Part shown: one piece after another, positions 1-30,125 of the stretch | Position numbering within the stretch: position 1 is the first letter of the stretch | Layout of the letters: the number at the start of each line of letters is the position of its first letter | NCBI GenBank assembly: GCA_947496065.1 | Contig: CANMBF010000028.1 | Span: 1-32,271 of the forward strand | DNA length: 32,271 nt | Reading direction: 5' to 3' | From: Bacteroidota bacterium | GTDB lineage: Bacteria; Bacteroidota; Bacteroidia; NS11-12g; UBA955 | Notes under the pieces: model-generated | The model's input: only the letters and a program-made list of their open reading frames with translations | What the model was told of the DNA's origin: nothing | Database searches by the model: none | Program-made: the position numbers and the translations under genes

Positions 1-45
1 TAATCTGTTGTCAAATTCTTCTTGATTCATGACTTGTAATTTCAT
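1..45 (-). CDS. 5' end of a gene downstream of the ECF sigma factor (partial, likely regulator or anti-sigma)
   Basis: On the minus strand an ATG at 45 (in frame with a second ATG at 30) opens a reading frame that runs off the window. The visible peptide reads MKLQVMNQEEFDNRL. The frame overlaps the last ~35 bases of the sigma factor gene, a layout typical of a translationally coupled sigma/anti-sigma pair. Only 15 codons are visible, so the function is not determined; an anti-sigma or membrane regulator is an inference from position alone. Confidence 0.4.
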   Translation of the reverse strand, partial: MKLQVMNQEEFDNRL

Positions 46-571
46 TTTTATATAACTGCCATAAAAGACCGCGCGCCCTTGTTAAAGTGCTGCGTGAGGT
101 GCTCTCTGGCATATTTAATTTTTCTGCAATTTCTTTATGACTGTACCCATCTATTGCATAAAGCATGAGCACAATACTATAATTTTCTGGTATGCGTTTT
201 AGCAACATCAAAACCAACTCTGAATCGAATTTTTCTGGTGCTTCTTCTTTTATTTCCGCCATCTGCCACGTTGTTTCATCAATCGAAACTTGGAGTGCAA
301 GTTTCTTGTTGGCCCTCAACTTATTGATGGCTTCATTGATAAAAATACGGGTCATCCAAGTTTCTAAACTACTTTGAAAACTGAACTTGTCAAGGTTGTT
401 AAACACCTTCACAAACGCATCTTGGAAGGCATCTTCTGCCAACTCCATTTCTTTCAAATATCGTTTACATACAGCCAACATTTTTCCCGAAAAGCGATTG
501 TACAAAGCTTCTTGCGACAATCTGTCGCCCTTTAAACATCCCTCTATCACTTGCTGTTCGGCAAATACCAT
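11..571 (-). CDS. ECF-family RNA polymerase sigma factor (sigma-70 family)
   Basis: A 186-residue protein with the two-domain layout of ECF sigma factors. Region 2 is near residues 20-90, with the core-binding and -10 recognition segment around DAFQDAFVKVFNNL and then TWMTRIFINEAINK. Region 4 lies near residues 120-175, with the helix-turn-helix segment HKEIAEKLNMPESTSRSTL. It would direct RNA polymerase to a small stress or envelope regulon. It resembles the second sigma factor of this window (29503-30045), sharing the YAIDG.xHKEI motif, so the two are paralogues. The ATG at 571 follows a -7 element at 589-596, giving a leader of about a dozen bases. The downstream gene overlaps its 3' end. 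Which genes it controls cannot be read here. Confidence 0.93.
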   Translation of the reverse strand: MVFAEQQVIEGCLKGDRLSQEALYNRFSGKMLAVCKRYLKEMELAEDAFQDAFVKVFNNLDKFSFQSSLETWMTRIFINEAINKLRANKKLALQVSIDETTWQMAEIKEEAPEKFDSELVLMLLKRIPENYSIVLMLYAIDGYSHKEIAEKLNMPESTSRSTLTRARGLLWQLYKNEITSHESRRI

Positions 572-11875: not shown

Positions 11876-14800
11876 TTAGAGCACTTCAATTTTTGCAGTG
11901 GTCCATTGCATGCCATCATGTATTCTTAGCATGTAAAATCCTTTCGCTATGCCATTTAGATTTAATGCAGTTGAATGATTGAAAAAGCCTGTGGAAATTG
12001 ATTTGCCGTCCATGCTTAACATTTGCCATTCATATGCTTGATTGGTTTCACCTATAACATGTAAAATATCGCCACTCGGTATTGGGTAAACTTGGATCGT
12101 CTGACGAGTAATATTGTTGATGTTTGATTTTACCACCTTAAATGTTTTGGTTAATTCACATGAACAACTGGTGCTACTTGTAACCTTAACTTTAACGGTG
12201 TAATTGCCATCGTTGAAAAATTGATGAACCATGTTATTGTTGGAGCCTGTGGTGCCATCGCCAAAATCCCATTGATAATTGCTGTGGTTATTTTGTGTCA
12301 CCATAAATTTATAACCTCTGCCATCGTAATTAATCCAATAATTTTCAGCACTAAAATCACAGTTTGGATTTTCATTGACAGTGACTTGTTTGCAAATACT
12401 ATCTGCACAGCCTTTGGTATTGGTTTCTTTTAAACAAACCACATAGGAAGTGGCCTTGTTTACCTGCCAAGCCTTGGTAATATCTTTTGTTTTGGAGATG
12501 CCAGCCGATGCCACATTCCATTCGTGAATGACTGGTATAGTATAAGTGCTTTGGTTTTTAAAATAAAAAGAATCACCCGAACAAACCTCATCTTTCACGG
12601 TATAATCCGCTTTAGGGGTTTCGAATATTTCAAAAGTTTTTGTTTGAATGGCTTTGCACTCTTTTGTATTAGCTCTAAAACTAATGGTTAGAGTTTGAGG
12701 AGAAAATTTTTCAGTTGGGTGCAATTGATTGTTATATTTTCTTGTGTTGTTAATGGTCCAATAAAAATCAATAATTGGTTTTCTGTAATTGATACTAGCA
12801 TCTAATTGAGTGGCTTGTTGAGAACAGAAGTTTCGCGCATCAAAATTCACATTTAAAATTTCAGGTTTTACACTGATGCTGGTTGTGTTTTGACAGCCCA
12901 AATCATCGTATACAGTTAATTGAAAGGTCTGTTGCGTAGAATCAACAACTTTGAATTTGATGGTGTTCATGTTTTGTGGATTCCAAAAACCAAGGGTCCA
13001 TTCATTATAAGCAATGGCACGGTTATGAGTGGTTAAATCTACCAATTGCCCAGAGTCGCCATAGCAATATGAACTTATGCCAATAACCGGTTTAGGCTTG
13101 TTGTAAACGGTTACATAGCGAATGGCAGTATCGGAACAACCCGTCACCAAATCGGTGGATTTTAAAACAATGCTATGATTACCCTCGCGACAATAATTTT
13201 TTGCAGGTTGGAATAATGTTTTAGAAGTGGTATCATCAAACTGCCATTTAAATGAATAGGTAGATGCTGAGATATCGGTTGTGTTTTTTAATTTCAAGTC
13301 AGCACAAGGACATGTATTTTTTGCAGTAAAAGAGGGTTTCACATTGCCCACCACAATATAGGATAAAGAGGCGGTGTCTTTGCAGCCATTGCCATAAGAA
13401 GCTTTTAATTCAATGTAGTAATCGGCAGTTGCATTTCTTGCTACCTTGATATTTTTACCACTCAAATTGTAGTTGTTAAAAGGCCCCACAATCCAAGTAT
13501 AACTAATCGGCAATGTTGGTTCGGTATGAACAGAAGAATTGAAGATGGTGAGTGAATCATTCGATTGGCAATATTTTGCAGACATACCATTTAAGTTCGC
13601 AATTGGATTTAAACTGAGTGAAACGGTGGTGGTATCAAAAAATGTTTTCTTACAAACTTCAGTTTTTAGATAAATGGTGTAAGTGCCACTCTTGTTAAAG
13701 TTTTTAACCACATTTTGATTCACCAATGAATCATTTGGTCCAAAATACCAAGTACATTTTCTAGAAACATCACCTAAACTACTGAAGGAAACATTGGTAT
13801 TATTGGTGCCGCAAAATAGCCGCTGGTTCGCAACATAGTGGTCAAAGTTAATGATGGTACTTGTATCACTCACGCCAGCTGCAAGCCATGCTTCTTTGGT
13901 CATGGCCGCTTCAATACCGCAACTGCCGAATAAATCTTTTGCAGCCTTTACATCGAAGGTTGCTATCATGCCAAAATCTGTATTGGGGGTAATATAATTG
14001 AGAATGGCTTGGTAAACTATTTTTACGCCTTTTTCGAATCCCAATCCTTTTACAGCGTAATTGTAACTGTTGTCATTAGTGCCTGTGTCACCATGGGTAA
14101 GGGTGTAAAAGAAATGGTTTTGAACACCCCCATCGCTATGGAAACCACCACCAAAATATTTACCATTATAGGTGTCAGGATTCTGGAAATTTTTAGGTTC
14201 AGCCATGTCGCGAATGCCACCAACCCAAACTTGGTCGCCAACAATCCAGTTAAAATTCGTGCTATCACCTGTGCGTTCGGTGATATACCCTTGAATATCT
14301 GCGAAGCTCTCGTGCAAAGCACCCGACTCGCCACTGTAAACCAATTTTGCGATGCCATCTAAAACACCATGTCCTAATTCATGTCCAACAACATCGAGCG
14401 AAGTGCAAGGCGTAACTGAACCACTAGTGCCTGTATAATAATTGACGTAGTTGCCACCTAAGGTCCAGAATGCATTGCCCGAACTACTAGGTTGTGCGAG
14501 GTTGTACAGCAAGGTGCCTTTATTATCGAAACTGTTAACGTTAAATCGTTTTTTTAATAAATCCATGAGCACTTCTGTACCCCAATGGATATCATTGGTG
14601 CCATAGCTGCTATCGGCCCAATGTTTGGTTTTGTTCCAAAAATCGTTGCCTTGAAATTGCAAAAAAGTCTCAATATACCTTTGCCCATTTTCTCTTAATC
14701 TAAAACTATCCTTCTTTAAAAAATCCGCTTTAATGTTGCGTAGGCCCCTGTATAAAGTTTTAGCTGTGTTCACAGAATCAACATGGGCAATTAAATTTTC

Positions 14801-15427
14801 TTTTAATACAATGGCACCTGTTTGTGTGTTGATGTATATTTTATCGTGCAGTTCACCTTCAATCACTTTAATGCGATAGGCATGGCATAAATAAAACGGC
14901 GATTGTTCATAGCCTGTGGTTGATTTAGCCCAAATTAATTCAGGAATATTGGATTCAGGTTTTGGATTCCAGTTCGATTCTGAACCATTGAAATAATGTT
15001 CGGTTGCAATTGTAAGTGTTTTTTTGGAACTAAGTGAAGCTGCATAATCATCTGGTGTAAATTCAAATAAATCGGTGTTAAAAGATTCAACAACGTTATG
15101 CTGCAAGTGCAAAATAATGGCCGAATGATTGATAGGAATTTGATCCAACATTTGAATATAACGAACATGTCTTAATCCCACTTCATCTGTTTTATCACTT
15201 TCTATTATAAAACTAAAATTTTTATAAGCAGAGTATTGGTTTTTGAACCATAACCAGAAGTTATCTGTTTCGAGGGTAGGTTGGGTAAATTCCGCGTACC
15301 AAGGCAAGGTATTTCCTTGATGATAATGGGCATTTCGTAGTTTTGGAGTTGCGCTTGCATTGGCATATCCACCTATAAAAAGGGTTAAAAACAATATGAA
15401 TGACTTAAGCGTATTTCTTGCGTCCAT
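11876..15427 (-). CDS. Secreted M4 (thermolysin-family) metalloprotease with PKD-like domains and T9SS sorting signal
   Basis: An 1183-residue secreted zinc protease. The signal peptide (residues ~7-24) is followed by a propeptide region to about residue 220. The M4 catalytic domain has the zinc motif HELGH (349-353), the third zinc ligand Glu373 in HESFAD, and His430 in GFHSDGGVQN. Several Ig/PKD-like modules follow, the last with WDFGDGTT near residue 1055. A T9SS type A sorting domain starts near residue 1112 (VYPIPSGDILHVIG ... GFYMLRI). Export through the outer membrane with cleavage of the C-terminal domain is expected. The length and many cysteines suggest a cell-surface or matrix-degrading enzyme. 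The -7 box lies only 4 bases from the ATG. Confidence 0.93.
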   Translation of the reverse strand: MDARNTLKSFILFLTLFIGGYANASATPKLRNAHYHQGNTLPWYAEFTQPTLETDNFWLWFKNQYSAYKNFSFIIESDKTDEVGLRHVRYIQMLDQIPINHSAIILHLQHNVVESFNTDLFEFTPDDYAASLSSKKTLTIATEHYFNGSESNWNPKPESNIPELIWAKSTTGYEQSPFYLCHAYRIKVIEGELHDKIYINTQTGAIVLKENLIAHVDSVNTAKTLYRGLRNIKADFLKKDSFRLRENGQRYIETFLQFQGNDFWNKTKHWADSSYGTNDIHWGTEVLMDLLKKRFNVNSFDNKGTLLYNLAQPSSSGNAFWTLGGNYVNYYTGTSGSVTPCTSLDVVGHELGHGVLDGIAKLVYSGESGALHESFADIQGYITERTGDSTNFNWIVGDQVWVGGIRDMAEPKNFQNPDTYNGKYFGGGFHSDGGVQNHFFYTLTHGDTGTNDNSYNYAVKGLGFEKGVKIVYQAILNYITPNTDFGMIATFDVKAAKDLFGSCGIEAAMTKEAWLAAGVSDTSTIINFDHYVANQRLFCGTNNTNVSFSSLGDVSRKCTWYFGPNDSLVNQNVVKNFNKSGTYTIYLKTEVCKKTFFDTTTVSLSLNPIANLNGMSAKYCQSNDSLTIFNSSVHTEPTLPISYTWIVGPFNNYNLSGKNIKVARNATADYYIELKASYGNGCKDTASLSYIVVGNVKPSFTAKNTCPCADLKLKNTTDISASTYSFKWQFDDTTSKTLFQPAKNYCREGNHSIVLKSTDLVTGCSDTAIRYVTVYNKPKPVIGISSYCYGDSGQLVDLTTHNRAIAYNEWTLGFWNPQNMNTIKFKVVDSTQQTFQLTVYDDLGCQNTTSISVKPEILNVNFDARNFCSQQATQLDASINYRKPIIDFYWTINNTRKYNNQLHPTEKFSPQTLTISFRANTKECKAIQTKTFEIFETPKADYTVKDEVCSGDSFYFKNQSTYTIPVIHEWNVASAGISKTKDITKAWQVNKATSYVVCLKETNTKGCADSICKQVTVNENPNCDFSAENYWINYDGRGYKFMVTQNNHSNYQWDFGDGTTGSNNNMVHQFFNDGNYTVKVKVTSSTSCSCELTKTFKVVKSNINNITRQTIQVYPIPSGDILHVIGETNQAYEWQMLSMDGKSISTGFFNHSTALNLNGIAKGFYMLRIHDGMQWTTAKIEVL

Positions 15428-20825: not shown

Positions 20826-22187
20826 TTATCTTTTAACGGTTATCCATTCATCAATAAATCCACAATTCAAATAATGCGAACTGATAGAAATATACATGTC
20901 TTTTCTTTTGGTTACAGCCCACTTGTCTAATTCGGTTTTCTTTTTTGCCTCTAATGCCATGGCTTGAATTCTTTGCCAATCATCTTCTAAATTCGCAACA
21001 TGTGGTTTTGTTTCAGATTTTAAAAATAGAATACGGTAGTAGGTGCTACCATCCGGGGCAAAACCCAGGATAGGTTCACTGTACTGTCCTATTTTTAATT
21101 GACCTACCGCTGCGGCCATATCTTTTTCTAAATAATCGTAAGGTATTCTTTGTGTACCTAAATTAGGGTCAGTGAAAAAGCCGCAATTGCTTTTGGTTTC
21201 GTCATCTTGACTATAATCTTTAACTGCTTTACACAATGAAATTGAATCTTTGCGCAACCAACCTAAGATGGTGTCAATTTTATTTCTCACCAATTCTAAA
21301 TCGTTCTCAACAATTAAAGGTGAAATTAAAATATGGCGAACAATAAGACGTTCACCACGCTTATCTACAACCTTAATAATATGATAGCCATAACGTGTTT
21401 CTATAATATTAGAGACACTGTCCTTTTTTGTTTTGAAGGCAGCACGCTCAAATTCAGGAACCATGTCATTTCTTCCAAATTCCGGTAATAAACCGCCAGT
21501 ACCTTTACTGCCAGGATCTTTTGAATATAATGAGGCAAGTTTCCCAAAATTTTCTCCTTTTAGAATACGTTCGCGCAATAATTCTATTTGCTCTTTTGCA
21601 ATCTCTTTCGACTCGGGACTAAAAATAGGTTTAATAGCAATTTGTGCGACCTCCACTTCGGCCGAAATAAAGGGTAAACTATCTACAGGAATTTTCTTAT
21701 AAAAATCCCTTACTTCCTTTGGGGTTATTTTTACATTACTTTGGATTTGGTATTCCATTTTTTCTACCAACATCTGTGCTCTAACTTTAGGTCGCATTTG
21801 TGATTTGTATTCCGCAATGCTCATACCCAAATACCTTTCCAAATTGGCCTTATTGTTCCTTTGTCTTTCAAAAATACGCAAGTTGTTGTCCATCTTATCT
21901 TCTACCTCTGTCTCAGTTATTGGGAGACTATCCACACCAGCTTGGTGGATTAACATTTTGTCGGTCAATAATCTTCTAAAAATAGAACAACGCAAGTCAT
22001 CGGTTACTGGAATGTCTGGGTCAATTTGCGAGATTAAGACATCTAACTCTGAACGCAACACAGGTGTGTTACCAACCACAGCAATAACTTCATCAATTAC
22101 CTTTGGCTCTTTGCTTTGGGCTTGTATCTGTTGTCCCCAAAAGACGAGGTTAATGAGCAATGCGATATATTTGATTCTTGGTCTCAA
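20826..22187 (-). CDS. surA: SurA-like periplasmic peptidyl-prolyl isomerase/chaperone
   Basis: A 453-residue secreted chaperone for outer-membrane protein folding. The signal peptide (about residues 5-23) ends in QIQAQ. A SurA N-terminal domain follows (VIDEVIAVVGNTPVLRSELD), then two parvulin (PPIC) domains: the first near 175-275 with GTGGLLPEFGRNDMVPEFE and TRYGYHIIKVVDKR, the second near 280-390, more divergent. The start is a TTG at 22187: no in-frame ATG lies in the signal peptide or just upstream. It follows the lipoprotein gene by 28 bases and precedes moxR by 8. A weak start codon may set a lower level than its neighbours. Confidence 0.9.
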   Translation of the reverse strand: MRPRIKYIALLINLVFWGQQIQAQSKEPKVIDEVIAVVGNTPVLRSELDVLISQIDPDIPVTDDLRCSIFRRLLTDKMLIHQAGVDSLPITETEVEDKMDNNLRIFERQRNNKANLERYLGMSIAEYKSQMRPKVRAQMLVEKMEYQIQSNVKITPKEVRDFYKKIPVDSLPFISAEVEVAQIAIKPIFSPESKEIAKEQIELLRERILKGENFGKLASLYSKDPGSKGTGGLLPEFGRNDMVPEFERAAFKTKKDSVSNIIETRYGYHIIKVVDKRGERLIVRHILISPLIVENDLELVRNKIDTILGWLRKDSISLCKAVKDYSQDDETKSNCGFFTDPNLGTQRIPYDYLEKDMAAAVGQLKIGQYSEPILGFAPDGSTYYRILFLKSETKPHVANLEDDWQRIQAMALEAKKKTELDKWAVTKRKDMYISISSHYLNCGFIDEWITVKR

Positions 22188-22215
22188 TTTTATTTTTATT
22201 AATTAGGAACTGATT

Positions 22216-23079
22216 TTATTGTAGCGGGTAAATTTTGACATCACCATTACTTTTTGCTTTTTCAACAAGTGAATTTTGTGTACGCTTAAGAAAATTAAGT
22301 TTGCGTTGATAAAGTAAAATGTCTTTTATTTTATCGCGTTCAAATTCAATTGGTGAAACGGTATTTTTGATTCTAAAATCGATGATATACAACAAATACA
22401 AAATCCCATTTTCTTCAATTGTAATAAATTTATTGTTACTCAAAAAGCGCTGTTGGTTGTAATTTTCATCCAATGGAATTTCCTTGATAATATCATCGAG
22501 GTACAACCAATTGTCATCTACATAAAAATTATCTGCTTGTTTTTCTGCGCTCATGCGCAAGAGAGAGTCATTCAAAATATTGGGAATTTGCATAAGGACT
22601 TTGATATTATTGATATCCGAATGACCTTTTTTGATTTTTACGTAACGAATTTTGACAATGTTTTTTTTCAATTGAAAGTTGTTTGAATTGCTTGTATAGA
22701 ACGTTTCAATTTCACTTTCTGTTACACCAGTATCTAATTTTTCTTTGATCAGTTTTTGTTGATATTCAAAAATCAACAAAGAGGTTTTATAATCTTCAAT
22801 TAATTTTGATTTGTCTTTTTCTTCACTGCTTAAATTAGTTTCGGCAGCTTGTAACATCAATTGTTTCTCAACCCATCGGTCGATGTATTGTTTAAGCAAT
22901 CCCGAACTATCACTCTCGGTCAATGCTTGAAAATAATTCGCAGGGATATCAATTTTATACAAAGTTTTACCTCCAGCCTCAGCCAAAATATCACCCGTCT
23001 TCGCTTGGTCTTTTGGTTTACAACCAACCGATGCAATAATCAGACAAATGAAGATATAATTGATGAAGCGCAATGCCAT
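22216..23079 (-). CDS. Lipoprotein with SurA/PpiC-like N-terminal chaperone region
   Basis: A 287-residue protein with a lipoprotein signal (ending IIASVGC, Cys20). The region after it (YIDRWVEKQLMLQAAE ... VTESEIETFYTSN) looks like the helical chaperone part of SurA/PpiD-type proteins, but the later segment lacks an obvious intact parvulin domain. It is probably a lipid-anchored holdase that works with the flanking isomerases. Its ATG overlaps the stop of the upstream isomerase gene by one base (TAATG), so translation is coupled. Family assignment rests on weak similarity and strong context. Confidence 0.72.
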   Translation of the reverse strand: MALRFINYIFICLIIASVGCKPKDQAKTGDILAEAGGKTLYKIDIPANYFQALTESDSSGLLKQYIDRWVEKQLMLQAAETNLSSEEKDKSKLIEDYKTSLLIFEYQQKLIKEKLDTGVTESEIETFYTSNSNNFQLKKNIVKIRYVKIKKGHSDINNIKVLMQIPNILNDSLLRMSAEKQADNFYVDDNWLYLDDIIKEIPLDENYNQQRFLSNNKFITIEENGILYLLYIIDFRIKNTVSPIEFERDKIKDILLYQRKLNFLKRTQNSLVEKAKSNGDVKIYPLQ

Positions 23080-25100
23080 TATCGGGTCATTCTATTTTTG
23101 AAAATAGTGTAAATGGCTTGATCAACTATGATAGGGTATTTGGCCATTAAGGTTTCTAACCATGCTTTCTCTAAATAATTCTGGTAGTCGCTGGTGATAG
23201 GGCCTCTCGCTTCATTCAATGTTTTCTTACCTGAAGGTAAAAACTGGTGAATTTGAATAATCACATAACCGCCTGGTACTTTCATATCTTCAAATATTAA
23301 ATATTTGGTATCCGTTTGACCCGTTTCAAATAACATGTTCGCATAGTTATTATCGCCTTTTTCAAATTTACCAGTTATAGGATTGGCAATGTTTAAAGGA
23401 TTCTTTCTATTGTATTTTCTTACAATTGAATCCACCGTCAAATTGGCTTCTAAATCTTTTTTAACACCATCGGCAACCTCTTTGGTAGCGCATCTGTAAA
23501 TGGTCGCATCATAACGGTTTTGGAAAGTGTATTTTGCTGTATTTTGATTGTAGAAGTTTTTTAAACCAACAGTATCTTCCACACTTTTGGTCCATACTTT
23601 TTTATCAGTTAAAGTAAACAATAAAATGCCTTCTCTGTATTCTTTGTACAATGCAGCGAACGTATCGTTAATATTTTCCAAATCATTTTCATAATAATCC
23701 ATTACCGATTGAAGTTTGAATTCTTTGTATGCGTTGGCAACCACTGCAGCCAAATTTTTTGATTCAGTTGGTGTTTCAATTTGATTTAAAAATTTACCAA
23801 AATCTGCAACCGTAAATGCTTTTTTCTTGGTGGCTAAAGTGAACAAAGGTAGTTTAGCCAGTTTAGCAAATTGCTCCTTGGTTAAATGGTTGGCGCTGAA
23901 TTTATATTGACCCATCAACAACGAATCAGTGATTTCGGGTTCGTAAGCCGTTAATGCTTTTGGATTTTCTTTTACTTTATAATAGGCAAGTGCTCTGTTG
24001 TATACAGCAACAGTGTTTCTGTACTGGCGACTGTCTCGGCTAATTTTTGTTAGTATTGTACCCCTCATGTCTTTCATGGAAGCCAAAGGCTTTAATGAAA
24101 CACGTTTGATAATATGAAAGCCTGCTGGTGTTTGAATCGGTTGAGAATACTCACCATCGCGCGCTAAACTAAATGCGGTTGATTTAAATTGCTCTGGTAA
24201 ACGCATGCTCGTCATTGAGAATGGAGGCAATTCGCCATTATTTGTTGCTGATGAAACATCTTCTGAATATTGTTGAACCAATTGGTCGAATTTTTCGCCA
24301 GCTTGTAATTTTTTGTATACTTCATCAATTTTTGCTTTTGCTTCAGCTACCTCATCTGCTCCAGGGTTTGGATTGGTTTGAATCATAATATGCTTAACCG
24401 TCATATCACCTTTTGTGGGTCTTCTGTCAACCACTTTTAAAATATGGTATCCAAAAGATGTTCTGAAAACTGTTGATACTTGTCCAACGGGCGTATTGTA
24501 GGCTTGATTTTCATATTCGTAAACCAATTGAAAAGCTGTGGCAAATCCTAAGTCACCTCTGTTATCTTTGGCAGAAGGATCTTCGCTAAAGGTTTCAGCA
24601 GCATTGGCAAAATCTAATTTACCACTCACAATATCATTTCTTAATTCATTTAATTTAGCCAATGCCTTCAAAGTGTCAGCGGGTGCTGCATCAGGTGTAA
24701 TCCTTATCAATATATGGCTGGTTCTTACCTCATATCCATAACGTTCGTAGGCTTCCTTTACCAACTGATCATTCACTATTTTGTCAGTTAAATAAGGCTT
24801 AGCAATTTGTTTGCGGTAGGTGGCCAGCTCACTTTTAAAACCTTCAGTGGTATCAATACCTTGGTCGTAAGCGTCTTGTACTTTTAATTTAAATTTTTTG
24901 TAAAGTTCTAAGTAGTCATCTACGTCCTTTGCACTGTGTTTTGTGCCTGGTTTTTCATTTTTTGTAAATCCATGGTCAAATTCCTTTAGGTTTACTTTCT
25001 TCGCTCCATAAGTAAACAAGGTGGTGTCTTTACCCTTTTTTTGTGCATTCGATAAGTTGGCTATAAAAAGCGCCAATGTAATAATAACAAAACGTTTCAT
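23079..25100 (-). CDS. Periplasmic peptidyl-prolyl isomerase with two parvulin domains (PpiD/SurA-like)
   Basis: A 673-residue secreted protein. After a signal peptide ending NLSNAQ come a helical N-terminal chaperone region (about 25-120) and two parvulin domains: one near 122-225 (VRTSHILIRI, then DLGFATAFQLVYEYE and SFGYHILKVVDRR) and one near 233-335 (VKHIMIQTN, then NNGELPPFS and AGFHIIKRVS). A long helical C-terminal half of about 330 residues follows. It is first in the four-gene cassette and is preceded by a -7 box. The role is folding of outer-membrane or secreted proteins; the large C-terminal half may hold a substrate-binding cradle. Confidence 0.9.
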   Translation of the reverse strand: MKRFVIITLALFIANLSNAQKKGKDTTLFTYGAKKVNLKEFDHGFTKNEKPGTKHSAKDVDDYLELYKKFKLKVQDAYDQGIDTTEGFKSELATYRKQIAKPYLTDKIVNDQLVKEAYERYGYEVRTSHILIRITPDAAPADTLKALAKLNELRNDIVSGKLDFANAAETFSEDPSAKDNRGDLGFATAFQLVYEYENQAYNTPVGQVSTVFRTSFGYHILKVVDRRPTKGDMTVKHIMIQTNPNPGADEVAEAKAKIDEVYKKLQAGEKFDQLVQQYSEDVSSATNNGELPPFSMTSMRLPEQFKSTAFSLARDGEYSQPIQTPAGFHIIKRVSLKPLASMKDMRGTILTKISRDSRQYRNTVAVYNRALAYYKVKENPKALTAYEPEITDSLLMGQYKFSANHLTKEQFAKLAKLPLFTLATKKKAFTVADFGKFLNQIETPTESKNLAAVVANAYKEFKLQSVMDYYENDLENINDTFAALYKEYREGILLFTLTDKKVWTKSVEDTVGLKNFYNQNTAKYTFQNRYDATIYRCATKEVADGVKKDLEANLTVDSIVRKYNRKNPLNIANPITGKFEKGDNNYANMLFETGQTDTKYLIFEDMKVPGGYVIIQIHQFLPSGKKTLNEARGPITSDYQNYLEKAWLETLMAKYPIIVDQAIYTIFKNRMTR

Positions 25101-25287: not shown

Positions 25288-27765
25288 TTATTGTTTGATG
25301 AATTTACTATAAAGCATTGTGTCGCCTTTCTGAATTTGAACCATGTACAAACCATTTGATAGGCATTCAATAGGAAGGGTAAGCATTGGTGTAGCTTCAT
25401 TTACAAGCTTCTCATAAACAATCTGACCCTGTAAATTATAGATGGTAACTTTGTCGTGTTGATTTATTGCTAACTTCAAATTTAATTGATCGTTGGCGGG
25501 GTTAGGATATACTTCAAAGCGACTATTTTTTTGTACCGAATGAATGCCCGTATTGACAACAGTGCAATAGGCTGTATTGGTTTTGCCTACATATTGGTTG
25601 TCGTAAAAAATGGCAGCCGTATTCTTAACAATATAGCCATTGCTAATTGGTTTCATTACTACCTTAAATCCAATGTATGAACCGCTGTTTGGGTTTTCAA
25701 AGTCCATGGTTGGATTAGCCACTAAGTTGATGTTAGGGAAATGCCATATAATGATACCGCGATTTGGGTTATTAGGGTCGGTTTCTAATGTTGTATAATA
25801 GGCTTTATTACTGCCCGTTTCTTCGATATAGGACATGTCTAAATTAAGGTCCAAAGTGTCTGTAATAATGGCATTGTAAACCATGTTTGAAGTGTAGTTG
25901 TTAAAGCTAATATTATAGCGAATATCTCTGTTGCTCATGGCAAGATAACTTACTGAATCACCTGGATTAGGTGTAGGGTAAATGTCTTTTCTAAAAGGGG
26001 CATATTTATTGTCGATATATTGTTCTATTGAGTCACTATCATCATTCGGGAAATCATTACTTGTAGCCGCTATCGAAGCCGAAGCCTGGGCTTGCAGAGG
26101 GGCATTGTTTTTAAAGGATGTGTCGTAGGCGATCCCTGAAAAGAAAAAGCTGCGTTTTTCGCCTGGTTTTAAATTGGCATAACTCCATACCACTGTTTCT
26201 AAAGTACTACTGGCCTCTGGTTTTGGGTCAGAAACCGAAGATGCTAACAATGGATTCTTTTTAAGTTTGACCAGTCCCGAAACGATGTTTGATCCTACAT
26301 TTTCACAAGTTACATAGTATTCTGTGCGTTTATCTTTCATTACTTGCGTGCCCTTCGGAGCAGCAATAATTACTTTCACATCATTGATATTCGTTTTTCG
26401 GATGATTGGAAAGGCAACACTATCTACATAGTTTTTTGTAAAGCTTTTAATAACAGTATCAAATGAACAATTACTTGGCTTGAAATTGCGCGGTAAATTT
26501 ATCGTAAATGGAATTTTTGGACTAATTGGCACAAATAAAAATTCGGCCATCCCCGCTTCATTCGTAATAGCATAGCGATTCAAAGGTGTGCTCATTTTGA
26601 TAAACTGTCGCGGCAACGCACGCTCGTTTTTATCTTGCAAACAATTGTTATTAGAATCTAAAAATACTTTTACAGTGGTTAAAACCGCATTTTTATAAAA
26701 CCTCACCACATGCATATTTTTATTCCAAATGCTCAATGGTTTTTGGGCTGTTCCTATTGCAAATAAAGCATTTCGGCCAACAGCAATTGATTTAGTACCT
26801 GGGTAATTGTTGGAATAATCATCCCACAAAACATTGTTGCTATTATATGTTAAAGTTGATCTCGGAACCTTGTTGCCTTTTAAATAGGCAACGCCATTCA
26901 TCCATAATGCGTTCTCATAAATTTCTAATTTGTTAAGTCGCGGAATGGAATCGAAATTCGTTTTTAAATCAATAAAACTTTTTTCAATCTTGTAAATTTT
27001 GCGCTCCTTGTTCACAATTCCCGAACCAAACAGGTTGACTCCGTTTAAAGCCAAATGGTCAATAATGGCTGGCGTATTGACAAAACTATCGAAAGCATCA
27101 CTTAAGTGATGAATAAAAAGATAATTGGAACGTTTGCCTTTAATGCTTGTAAAGTTGCCGGCAATTGCGAGAAGCGTATCTGTTACTGCAAGGTCAATCA
27201 CAGGGCCATTCGGCATGCAATTGGTGCAATTGAAAACCGAAGAGAAATTAAGGCCATTATATGCCACTAAATAGGGCACCGAATCTTTGGTGGCCAAAAC
27301 AGAATTGAAATTGCCGCCAATGATTAATTTTTTGTTAAAAATTTCGAGTGATGAAACAACAGCAATCTGTTGGTTGTTGCGCCTAAATTTTGAAATGGGT
27401 CCCCAATTAGTGCCATTAAATTTTATTAGCGCAGAGTAAAGACCGTTGTCAAAAGTAAAATTGCCGCCAACAAATAGCTGTGTACCATACAATTTAATGG
27501 TATTAATTTCTGCAGTTTTATTCAAGACCAAAGCGGGTAAATTACTCCAGCTTTTGCCGTCGTATTTGCCCACCACCCAATATGATTTAGTAGTGTCTTC
27601 GGTATACTTACTAATCGTAAAAATTAGGTTGTTATCGATTGTAAACGCAACAGGCTGTGGCATGTAAAATTCACCCTCAGGAAACCATACTTGTGCCTTT
27701 GCTTGAAAAGCAAAAATCAGACAACTGAATGCCAAAATAATTCTTCTTAATTTTTCACTTTTCAT
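25288..27765 (-). CDS. T9SS-exported surface protein with beta-propeller-like N-terminus, SdrD B-like and DUF11/DUF7619-like domains
   Basis: An 825-residue secreted protein. After a signal peptide (ending FQAKAQ), about 330 residues show repeated GNFT/VGGNF segments typical of a beta-propeller-like region. Then comes an SdrD B-like insert (VFLDSNNNCLQDKNERALPR), a DUF11-like repeat region with conserved-repeat segments (YYVTCENVGSNIVSG, then VYNAIITDTLDLNLDMSY), and a T9SS sorting domain from about residue 749 (FEVYPNPANDQLNLKL). It is likely a surface-anchored adhesin or matrix protein. Its ATG directly abuts the stop of the upstream anti-sigma/beta-barrel gene (TAAATG), making it the third gene of that operon. 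Confidence 0.88.
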   Translation of the reverse strand: MKSEKLRRIILAFSCLIFAFQAKAQVWFPEGEFYMPQPVAFTIDNNLIFTISKYTEDTTKSYWVVGKYDGKSWSNLPALVLNKTAEINTIKLYGTQLFVGGNFTFDNGLYSALIKFNGTNWGPISKFRRNNQQIAVVSSLEIFNKKLIIGGNFNSVLATKDSVPYLVAYNGLNFSSVFNCTNCMPNGPVIDLAVTDTLLAIAGNFTSIKGKRSNYLFIHHLSDAFDSFVNTPAIIDHLALNGVNLFGSGIVNKERKIYKIEKSFIDLKTNFDSIPRLNKLEIYENALWMNGVAYLKGNKVPRSTLTYNSNNVLWDDYSNNYPGTKSIAVGRNALFAIGTAQKPLSIWNKNMHVVRFYKNAVLTTVKVFLDSNNNCLQDKNERALPRQFIKMSTPLNRYAITNEAGMAEFLFVPISPKIPFTINLPRNFKPSNCSFDTVIKSFTKNYVDSVAFPIIRKTNINDVKVIIAAPKGTQVMKDKRTEYYVTCENVGSNIVSGLVKLKKNPLLASSVSDPKPEASSTLETVVWSYANLKPGEKRSFFFSGIAYDTSFKNNAPLQAQASASIAATSNDFPNDDSDSIEQYIDNKYAPFRKDIYPTPNPGDSVSYLAMSNRDIRYNISFNNYTSNMVYNAIITDTLDLNLDMSYIEETGSNKAYYTTLETDPNNPNRGIIIWHFPNINLVANPTMDFENPNSGSYIGFKVVMKPISNGYIVKNTAAIFYDNQYVGKTNTAYCTVVNTGIHSVQKNSRFEVYPNPANDQLNLKLAINQHDKVTIYNLQGQIVYEKLVNEATPMLTLPIECLSNGLYMVQIQKGDTMLYSKFIKQ

Positions 27766-29496
27766 TTAGTTTAACAAATATAATAATTTAATTGAAAGAC
27801 CATAACTGTATAGGTGCTCTTGCGCCTTGAAAGCACTGCCACTGGCACTGTAAGGATATTGCTTAGCAGAGAAATCCTTGTCGAAACGATTTGTAACCGT
27901 GTAAGAAGCCGCTAAATTGGTTTCCAATAAAAAGGAAGTGCCAATTTTGCGCTGTATTCCTAAACTCAAACCAGGACTAAAGGCCAAAGTATTCTGCGCT
28001 TTTTTAAGGTAATTAAAATGATAAAGTTGACTGTTCGCAGGATTTAACATAAAGTCTCCAGAACTTTTTACAGTGATACCTATAATACCGCTCAACCCAG
28101 TCATTAATTCCGTTTTAGTGTCTAATTTCCAAAAACGGTGATAGGTAAATGGAATATTTATTTTCTTAACAGCCATGTGGGCGCTGCCTAAAATGGTGGT
28201 ATCTCTTTTTTTGCCAAGAGAAAATTTGCCAACCAAAATACCTTGCGGGCTATAAACAGGAATTGAATCTTGTATCTGAATGACATAATTATAATTCGAT
28301 GTAAAATTTTGAGAAGTTATTTGAGCTCCCAGTTGAAACTGATTTCGCGCTTTTTGCATACCTGCAACAAAACCATATGAGAATTGGGTGATGGCTTTAT
28401 CCGCGTTGTTTCTAATGCTGTTATAAGCTGTAGGGTTATTGCCACTCAAGTGGCGATAGGTGCGGTCGATATCAGTTGCCAAGCCTACATAAAATTGAGG
28501 TAAAATTCGAGGCGGTCCTGGGGGAGGAGGTGTTGTAGTTTTCGGTGTTCCCTTTTTACTTGTATCAATCGATGCAATGGCAGGTGTTATGGTTTCACTT
28601 GCAGGATTGATAATTACTTCAGTTACTTTCTCTCTGCCTGAAATGCCGTCTAAAGTTTCAGGTACTGCTTTTATTTCAGTATTATTCAGAATATTTTCAA
28701 TACTGCTTTTTTGAGAATGCGCACTCACTATTTCAGTTTTAATTGGATTGGCAATTGGGGTCGTATTAATTAAACTTGTTGCTTCAATTGGTTCATTAAA
28801 AACTGCTTTTGTAATGCTGCTATGGGAGGTGTAATTGGTAGTTAACTGAAACACTTCTGGTTTTGATGTGACACTTTTTAAATTAGCACTCTGTTGAACA
28901 CGTGTGGTTTGCCTTACAATTGGAGAACTTACTTTGGTATTTGCTTTTAAAGGCGTTACAATTGTTTTTTCGGAGATTAATAGTTCAGGACTTGTATTTT
29001 TAGTCGGAGGCGCAATCGCAGGAGCATCTGAAACTATTGCATTTTTAATGTCTGTTTTATTGGTTTGTCCAATACTTGCAGTTGAATGCAAAGGTGTAAA
29101 ATAATTGGCCAATGCACCTAACAATAGCCCTATGATGGCCATATTCAACCACCACCACCAAACCATTTTTTTCTTTGATGAAGTCTCTAATTTATTTTTT
29201 GTGGCTGTCCAATCGGCATCAGTAACTGCAATTTCAAAATCTTTGAAAACATCTTTGGCATAGTCTGTAGGCAATAAAACCACAGTTCTACTGGGCTCTT
29301 TTTCTAATCTTTCTTTAATGCCTTGCCAATCTTTATCAGTAACAGGAAGTTCAAAATTTTCGAACAATGAATTATTTGTTGCAGTATCTGTTACCTCTGC
29401 TTTTATCTTTTCAAAATCTGAAGAAAATACCGGTAGCTCAAGGTTTTCTAAGCCTTTTGCAAATAATTGATCAATATGTATTTTCGTATTCGACAA
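27766..29496 (-). CDS. Putative dual membrane-spanning anti-sigma factor: repeated cytoplasmic motif, TM helix, periplasmic linker, outer-membrane beta-barrel
   Basis: A 576-residue protein. Residues 1-110 are charged and cytoplasmic, with three repeats of a motif LF+.FELPVTDxDWxxIKxxLE (about 11-33, 44-66, 83-104). Residues 112-132 form one transmembrane helix (MVWWWWLNMAIIGLLLGALA). Residues 133-330 are Thr/Ser/Pro/Lys-rich and probably disordered, ending in a PPPPGPP stretch. Residues ~333-576 resemble an 8-strand-type outer-membrane beta-barrel (QFYVGLATDI ... SYGFVAGMQK ... YSYGLSIKLLYLLN). It starts with TTG, 6 bases after the sigma stop. This matches the architecture of dual membrane-spanning anti-sigma factors known in Bacteroides. 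Anti-sigma function is inferred from architecture and neighbours. Confidence 0.8.
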   Translation of the reverse strand: MSNTKIHIDQLFAKGLENLELPVFSSDFEKIKAEVTDTATNNSLFENFELPVTDKDWQGIKERLEKEPSRTVVLLPTDYAKDVFKDFEIAVTDADWTATKNKLETSSKKKMVWWWWLNMAIIGLLLGALANYFTPLHSTASIGQTNKTDIKNAIVSDAPAIAPPTKNTSPELLISEKTIVTPLKANTKVSSPIVRQTTRVQQSANLKSVTSKPEVFQLTTNYTSHSSITKAVFNEPIEATSLINTTPIANPIKTEIVSAHSQKSSIENILNNTEIKAVPETLDGISGREKVTEVIINPASETITPAIASIDTSKKGTPKTTTPPPPGPPRILPQFYVGLATDIDRTYRHLSGNNPTAYNSIRNNADKAITQFSYGFVAGMQKARNQFQLGAQITSQNFTSNYNYVIQIQDSIPVYSPQGILVGKFSLGKKRDTTILGSAHMAVKKINIPFTYHRFWKLDTKTELMTGLSGIIGITVKSSGDFMLNPANSQLYHFNYLKKAQNTLAFSPGLSLGIQRKIGTSFLLETNLAASYTVTNRFDKDFSAKQYPYSASGSAFKAQEHLYSYGLSIKLLYLLN

Positions 29497-29502
29497 TTTC
29501 TT

Positions 29503-30045
29503 TTAACCTAATGTTTGTTCCAGTTTTATAATTTCCGTTTTTAAATAAGTGCGGGCTCTGTTTAATTGCGATTTGCTAGTTCCTTCACTAATCCCTAACA
29601 CTGCACCAATTTCTTTGTGCCCCAAGCCATCGATGGCATACATGTTAAATACCATTTTATAACCAGCAGGCATTGTGTCAATTAATGCCAATAGTTGATC
29701 TTGCCTTAATTGCGGAGACTCTACATAGTCTTCTTCGCCACCATCATTAAAGTAATGATCGTCACTCACAAATTGTACTTTGTTTATTTTTTTGACGCTA
29801 TCAATGGCGGTGTTCATCATGATTCTTGTTATCCAAGTATTAAAACTACTTCTTCCCTCATACTTATGCAAATTGGTGAAAATTTTCACGAACCCATCTT
29901 GCATAGCGTCTTTTGCATCATCTAGTGAAACCAGATAACGCCTGCAAATGCCAAGCATTTTAGGTCCAAAGAGTTTAAATATCTTCTCCTGCGCCCAGCT
30001 TTCATTTGCCTTACATGCCAATATCAATTCATCAATATCGCTCAA
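29503..30045 (-). CDS. ECF-family sigma factor, partner of the membrane-spanning anti-sigma
   Basis: A 180-residue ECF sigma factor. Region 2 is near residues 25-90 ([26 protein letters not shown], split here as [13 protein letters not shown] and [13 protein letters not shown]). Region 4 is near 120-170 ([19 protein letters not shown], then [18 protein letters not shown]). An acidic linker ([15 protein letters not shown]) separates them. The start is TTG at 30045; no nearby ATG fits. It is the first gene of an operon with the beta-barrel anti-sigma and a T9SS surface protein. No perfect -7 box lies directly upstream; a TAAATTTG on the minus strand at 30182-30189, inside divergent miaB, would give a ~130-base leader. 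It may be autoregulated through its own, unread, promoter motif. Confidence 0.92.
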
Positions 30046-30125
30046 ATTTCAGTTTTAATTCTATCCATTAGTCTGCCATTTATTAGAATGGTTGCACGGG
30101 TGGTGGCAATAATTTTATTTTTACC

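Follow-up and report, generated by a model that had tools for sequence, protein, structure and literature searches.

A predicted dual-membrane anti-sigma switch of the Dma/Reo kind linked to a type IX secreted propeller protein across a bacterial order

Introduction

Several Bacteroidota couple events at the cell surface to ECF sigma factors. Dma2 of Bacteroides thetaiotaomicron regulates its own operon, which is among the most induced genes after deletion of Dma2 (PMC13088901). The Reo system is induced by toxin and responds to envelope attack, and its regulon consists of secreted NigD proteins (PMC9308784, PMC13114119). A different arrangement is found in Porphyromonas gingivalis, where PorA, a protein with a sorting domain, acts upstream of the ECF sigma factor SigP (PMC7712824). 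The signal that is sensed by Dma/Reo switches is a standing question, and the published work that we found concerns gut Bacteroides and Phocaeicola. In the open-licence literature no paper was found that connects Dma-type anti-sigma factors with type IX cargos.

Here we analyze a three-gene locus in a 32,271-nucleotide stretch of DNA (contig CANMBF010000028.1 of assembly GCA_947496065.1; hereafter the window) from a member of the Bacteroidota. A preliminary description made from the sequence had likened its second gene product to the dual membrane-spanning anti-sigma factors of B. thetaiotaomicron. The comparison with Dma proteins (PMC13088901) proved apt as regards architecture: the sigma factor and the middle protein have the published Dma/Reo layout, and a switch of this kind is already known. 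What differs is the third gene, which encodes a type IX secreted surface protein (the cargo).

Organization of the locus

The genes for the sigma factor, the middle protein and the cargo follow one another on the minus strand with gaps of 6 bp and 0 bp, which leave no room for further genes. Positions of the genes and of their predicted parts are collected in Table 1.

Table 1. Features of the locus, in window coordinates
Feature	Position	Strand	Basis
Predicted ECF-type promoter, TGCAACCAT-N14-GACTA	30069..30096	-	23 bp before the sigma start codon
ECF sigma factor, 180 aa	29503..30045	-	TTG start; Pfam Sigma70_r2 and Sigma70_r4_2
Dma-like dual-membrane anti-sigma factor, 576 aa	27766..29496	-	TTG start; layout and fold; directly 3' of the sigma gene in relatives
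Cytoplasmic part, residues 1-110, three tandem short F-x-FE-x-DW units	29167..29496	-	Repeat test; sigma binding presumed
Predicted inner-membrane helix, residues 112-132, after KKK and WWWW	29101..29163	-	Sequence; model helix 93-132
Periplasmic tether, residues 133-330, mostly disordered, poorly conserved	28507..29100	-	pLDDT under 50 for 132-313
Predicted outer-membrane beta-barrel, residues 331-576	27769..28506	-	pLDDT mostly 85-98; OprF/OmpA/NspA/OmpW matches, Z 16-17
Type IX secreted surface protein (cargo), 825 aa	25288..27765	-	Por_Secre_tail and TIGR04183 over cut-off; linkage to sigma-Dma in the order
Cargo beta-propeller, about residues 24-359	26689..27696	-	Model m71922a10d3f7; propeller matches Z 20-22 over model residues 268-607
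Cargo DUF7619 domain, residues 608-733	25567..25944	-	Pfam PF24595, E 2e-13
Cargo C-terminal type IX sorting domain (type A), residues 752-823	25297..25512	-	Pfam PF18962

The sigma factor was recognized by Pfam regions 2 and 4 (E 4e-15 and 1e-14), shares 39-97% identity with the corresponding proteins of the first relatives and folds with confidence (mostly pLDDT 85-98) when modelled by AlphaFold in fusion with the middle protein. In searches of curated family profiles, a set without ECF-group models, it matched generic ECF models only; with TIGR02985, the Bacteroidetes FecI-like sigma subfamily, it scored 73 bits against a cut-off of 126.4. The same searches gave no match to a FecR domain in the middle protein. 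On these two grounds a FecI/FecR reading of the trio was rejected. The preliminary description had placed the locus outside the FecI/FecR model, which holds, but the Dma/Reo model does cover it, the type IX cargo excepted.

An operon of peptidyl-prolyl isomerase genes (20826-25100, minus strand) begins 187 bp past the trio and is common to the nearest relatives only; it contains PpiC/SurA-like genes at 20826-22187 and 23079-25100, with a 287-aa protein between them. A functional tie of the trio to this operon or to MiaB is unsupported, because only the nearest relatives share these flanks, whereas the trio is kept beyond them. A second sigma gene of the same family (11-571, minus strand; E 2.9e-60 against the sigma profile) reaches the contig end. 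G000:C36:87-1532(+) is its possible Dma partner, in which case the two contig ends would be joined.

The middle protein

Curated-family searches, Pfam included, returned no significant match for the middle protein, and a PDB sequence search returned nothing useful. Structure prediction was performed on a read-through fusion of the sigma factor and the middle protein, which lie in the same frame, with the sigma stop codon read through; such fusions served to fold neighbouring products in one model, and no claim is made that they exist as proteins. An alignment in which Dma-only rows were misaligned onto the sigma factor was set aside, and another was used for AlphaFold.

In the resulting model residues 331-576 are all-beta, mostly at pLDDT 85-98 except for a loop at about 550-562. 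Structure comparison matched this part to OprF (4rlc, Z 17.3, 131 residues aligned), OmpA (1qjp, Z 16.8, 134 aligned), NspA (1p4t, Z 16.8, 155 aligned) and OmpW (2f1v, Z 16.1, 176 aligned). The C-terminal 246 residues are confidently predicted to form an 8-strand outer-membrane barrel, and the model supports the barrel suspected there from the sequence, at Z 16-17 to known 8-strand barrels. A helix at residues 93-132, which contains 112-132, was modelled at pLDDT 46-66, and about 180 residues (132-313) fell under pLDDT 50. A single membrane helix followed by a long disordered tether is a feature of Dma/Reo proteins, and here both are predicted. Overall, the layout read from the sequence, with cytoplasmic, membrane, periplasmic and barrel parts in this order, is supported.

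The cytoplasmic part consists of short tandem units. The score of units 2-3 was reached in none of 2000 shuffles, and that of units 1-2 in one of 2000. The number of copies varies: three are present here, four in L026 and one in most of the order. In the fused model residues 1-110 have pLDDT of about 33-66, from nine alignment rows only and with no interface score. These residues presumably bind the sigma factor. The general layout of the protein is common to 16 relatives. In relatives the HID-LF and DW motifs are conserved together with a membrane helix, and a signal peptide is absent.

The cargo

Pfam detected Por_Secre_tail (E 1e-13) and DUF7619 (E 2e-13) in the third gene product. Its sorting domain scored over the cut-offs of both PF18962 (51.5 bits against 27) and TIGR04183 (46.8 against 23). 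In the model a propeller is joined to a stack of Ig-like domains; this predicted architecture resembles that of ligand-binding proteins and would suit ligand binding. A fused model of the barrel and the cargo gave good folds and no interface score. The SprA translocon is encoded in the genome (TIGR04189, 2418 bits against 200), and about 116 type A sorting domains exceed the Pfam cut-off, so that, judging from genome size, type A cargos would account for roughly one gene in twenty. A 1183-aa protein encoded at 11876-15427 of the window (minus strand) likewise carries a type IX sorting domain.

Conservation of the gene order

The three-gene order, conservation of which had been proposed as a check, was present in all 16 first relatives (from two families) where the contig permits a test. 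Genes flanking the trio differ among these relatives, the nearest ones excepted. A search of the order that started from the cargo identified 54 full-length cargo homologues in 39 genomes. The 54th lies at a contig end; a Dma-like gene adjoins 50 of the 53 testable ones, with a 154-aa frame intervening in one of the 50 pairs. This tally was made by hand, six cases being judged from coordinates alone. The three homologues with no adjacent Dma gene (L236, L239 and L246) could reveal what the cargo does without the switch. Throughout the order, even at low identity, one cargo family keeps its tie to the switch. The distances between cassettes obtained from the sigma factor, from the barrel and from the propeller agree with one another (Mantel rho 0.55-0.72), which shows co-inheritance of the cassette only and not contact.

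Dma-like proteins are widespread in the class, with matches in 363 of 396 genomes at E 0.001, and a sigma gene lies directly upstream in nearly all of the loci examined. The third gene elsewhere often encodes another exported protein: type A cargos of about 500 aa, very large CHU_C type B cargos and a CBM-bearing cargo were seen, and at some loci the position is occupied by lipoproteins, as judged by eye. Four Dma loci were found in the genome under study. The propeller cargo is the third gene of one; another continues with a 509-aa protein whose weak type A sorting domain is below the Pfam cut-off, another with an 1830-aa type B cargo, and the remaining one, after a wider gap, with a lipoprotein containing cytochrome c domains. 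Because unrelated cargos are repeatedly paired with it, a functional link of the Dma switch with surface export is indicated.

Predicted promoter and candidate regulon

The putative promoter of the operon is the sole match to its motif in the window, and no match occurred in 100 shuffles. The motif, GCAACCWT-N14-GWCWA, is of ECF type, with AAC in the upstream box and GTC or GAC in the downstream box. All 27 cassettes that were inspected, many of them close orthologues, have it upstream; in its strict form the motif was found ahead of 54 of 86 sigma genes of the order versus 4 of 37 elsewhere in the class.

With the spacer set to 13-14, the pattern occurs at six sites in the genome under study and its reversed form at none; in eight relatives the counts are 41 and 9, respectively. 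One of the six sites belongs to the operon, one is inside a gene and four lie ahead of other surface genes: two of these encode proteins with type IX sorting domains, one having PKD repeats and the other being a sulfatase, and two encode lipoproteins. The PKD protein and the 297-aa lipoprotein retain the motif in relatives although the spacer differs. A lipoprotein family of 291-297 aa (L287:358-1248, L293:398-1270, L294:1473-2345) keeps the GCAACC motif in several genomes of the genus and gave no Pfam match in the two members scanned. From sequence evidence we predict autoregulation and a regulon of surface proteins; paralogous sigma factors may read similar promoters.

Discussion

We consider it probable, at about 0.7, that the operon encodes an autoregulated switch of the Dma/Reo kind by which surface events reach transcription, that this switch is coupled to type IX secreted proteins and that the propeller cargo is its dedicated third component. 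The middle protein would hold the ECF sigma factor by its short cytoplasmic tandem repeats, would cross the inner membrane once by the predicted helix and would reach the outer membrane through a disordered tether that ends in the 8-strand barrel. By analogy with Dma1 and Reo, a change in the barrel (outer-membrane damage, loss of a surface partner or binding of a ligand) would free the sigma factor, which would then act at GCAACCWT-N14-GWCWA promoters, as the sequence suggests, to transcribe a few surface genes besides its own operon. The co-transcribed cargo would be at least an output. Sensing of its secretion or assembly by the barrel had been suggested earlier, and the cargo is possibly the surface partner being monitored. 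Such a reading fits the published behaviour of Reo and Dma2. A relation between cargo and switch is likely because their linkage is conserved and the promoter is shared. Against this reading stand the three full-length cargo homologues with no Dma neighbour and the fact that only four candidate target genes lie outside the operon in this genome, one of the six motif sites being intragenic.

The alternatives concern mainly the part played by the cargo, for which output and input fit equally well. The odds are about even that it is an output only, the switch sensing general outer-membrane stress and the exported protein being one product co-expressed in the operon. The promoter motif also stands ahead of surface genes away from the operon, the Reo/EcfO regulons consist of secreted proteins and third genes at other loci are unrelated, all of which agree with such a role, but one family tied to the switch through an order at low identity is more than would be expected of a random target. 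That same near-obligate linkage, together with an architecture like that of ligand-binding proteins and the precedent of PorA upstream of PorXY-SigP (PMC7712824), speaks for the cargo as the true input: the exported and anchored propeller protein would dock on the barrel and keep the switch off, or would bind an activating ligand, and the cell would thereby monitor its own surface protein or its secretion. We regard this as rather unlikely, since a main target gene would show equal linkage, other Dma loci carry different cargos and the barrel-cargo model came without an interface score. A more specific proposal, held to be about as unlikely, is three-component signalling in which the anchored type IX propeller acts as an outside sensor gating the barrel of the dual-membrane anti-sigma factor. 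If true, ligand binding or failed secretion of the cargo would be reported in one step to the sigma factor, which would renew the cargo and other surface proteins.

It is also conceivable that the middle protein, instead of being an anti-sigma factor, links the envelope or is an ordinary protein of the outer membrane, and that it lies 3' of the sigma gene by chance. Its N-terminal part indeed lacks a curated-family match and was modelled at low confidence. Conservation of the HID-LF and DW motifs with a membrane helix and no signal peptide, and the sigma gene directly upstream at nearly every locus examined in the class, make this explanation very improbable.

As far as the literature was searched, four elements are new: a Dma-type switch is coupled almost obligatorily to one family of type IX cargo throughout an order, further type IX cargos recur in third position, the cytoplasmic unit is repeated, and a promoter with target genes is predicted. 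Conservation across the order suggests that these bacteria have joined type IX secreted surface proteins to a surface-stress switch of a known type. In this lineage the copies of one cargo family are nearly all tied to the switch, which offers a concrete candidate for the surface molecule that is sensed or protected, and the predicted promoter with its short list of candidate targets makes the regulon testable in a cultured relative. The locus further suggests that type IX secretion and transcription are connected by a route distinct from PorXY-SigP.

Comparison with known systems

The closest likeness in architecture is to Dma1/Dma2 with Das1/Das2 of B. thetaiotaomicron (PMC13088901), where an ECF sigma gene is likewise followed by a gene for a protein with a cytoplasmic domain at the N-terminus, a single membrane helix, a long disordered tether and a barrel at the C-terminus. 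The Dma2 operon also has three genes, but its third encodes a DUF4943 protein, whereas here the position is held by a type IX cargo kept through an order, and the cytoplasmic part, unlike that of Dma1/Dma2, is built of tandem repeats. The EcfO/Reo system of Bacteroides fragilis and Phocaeicola vulgatus (PMC9308784, PMC13114119) resembles the locus as a sigma/anti-sigma pair acting across both membranes, with proposed sensing of outer-membrane stress and a regulon of secreted surface proteins; its known targets are NigD lipoproteins and O-antigen functions, and no type IX cargo has been described in the operon. PorA-PorXY-SigP of P. gingivalis (PMC7712824) likewise places a surface protein that bears a type IX sorting domain upstream of its ECF sigma factor, but it works by way of a two-component system, controls the secretion machinery and has no dual-membrane anti-sigma factor. 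In FecI/FecR/FecA, too, a surface event is passed to an inner-membrane anti-sigma factor and on to an ECF sigma factor; the trio differs in having neither a FecR domain nor a TonB-dependent transducer, and in uniting the barrel and the anti-sigma part in one chain.
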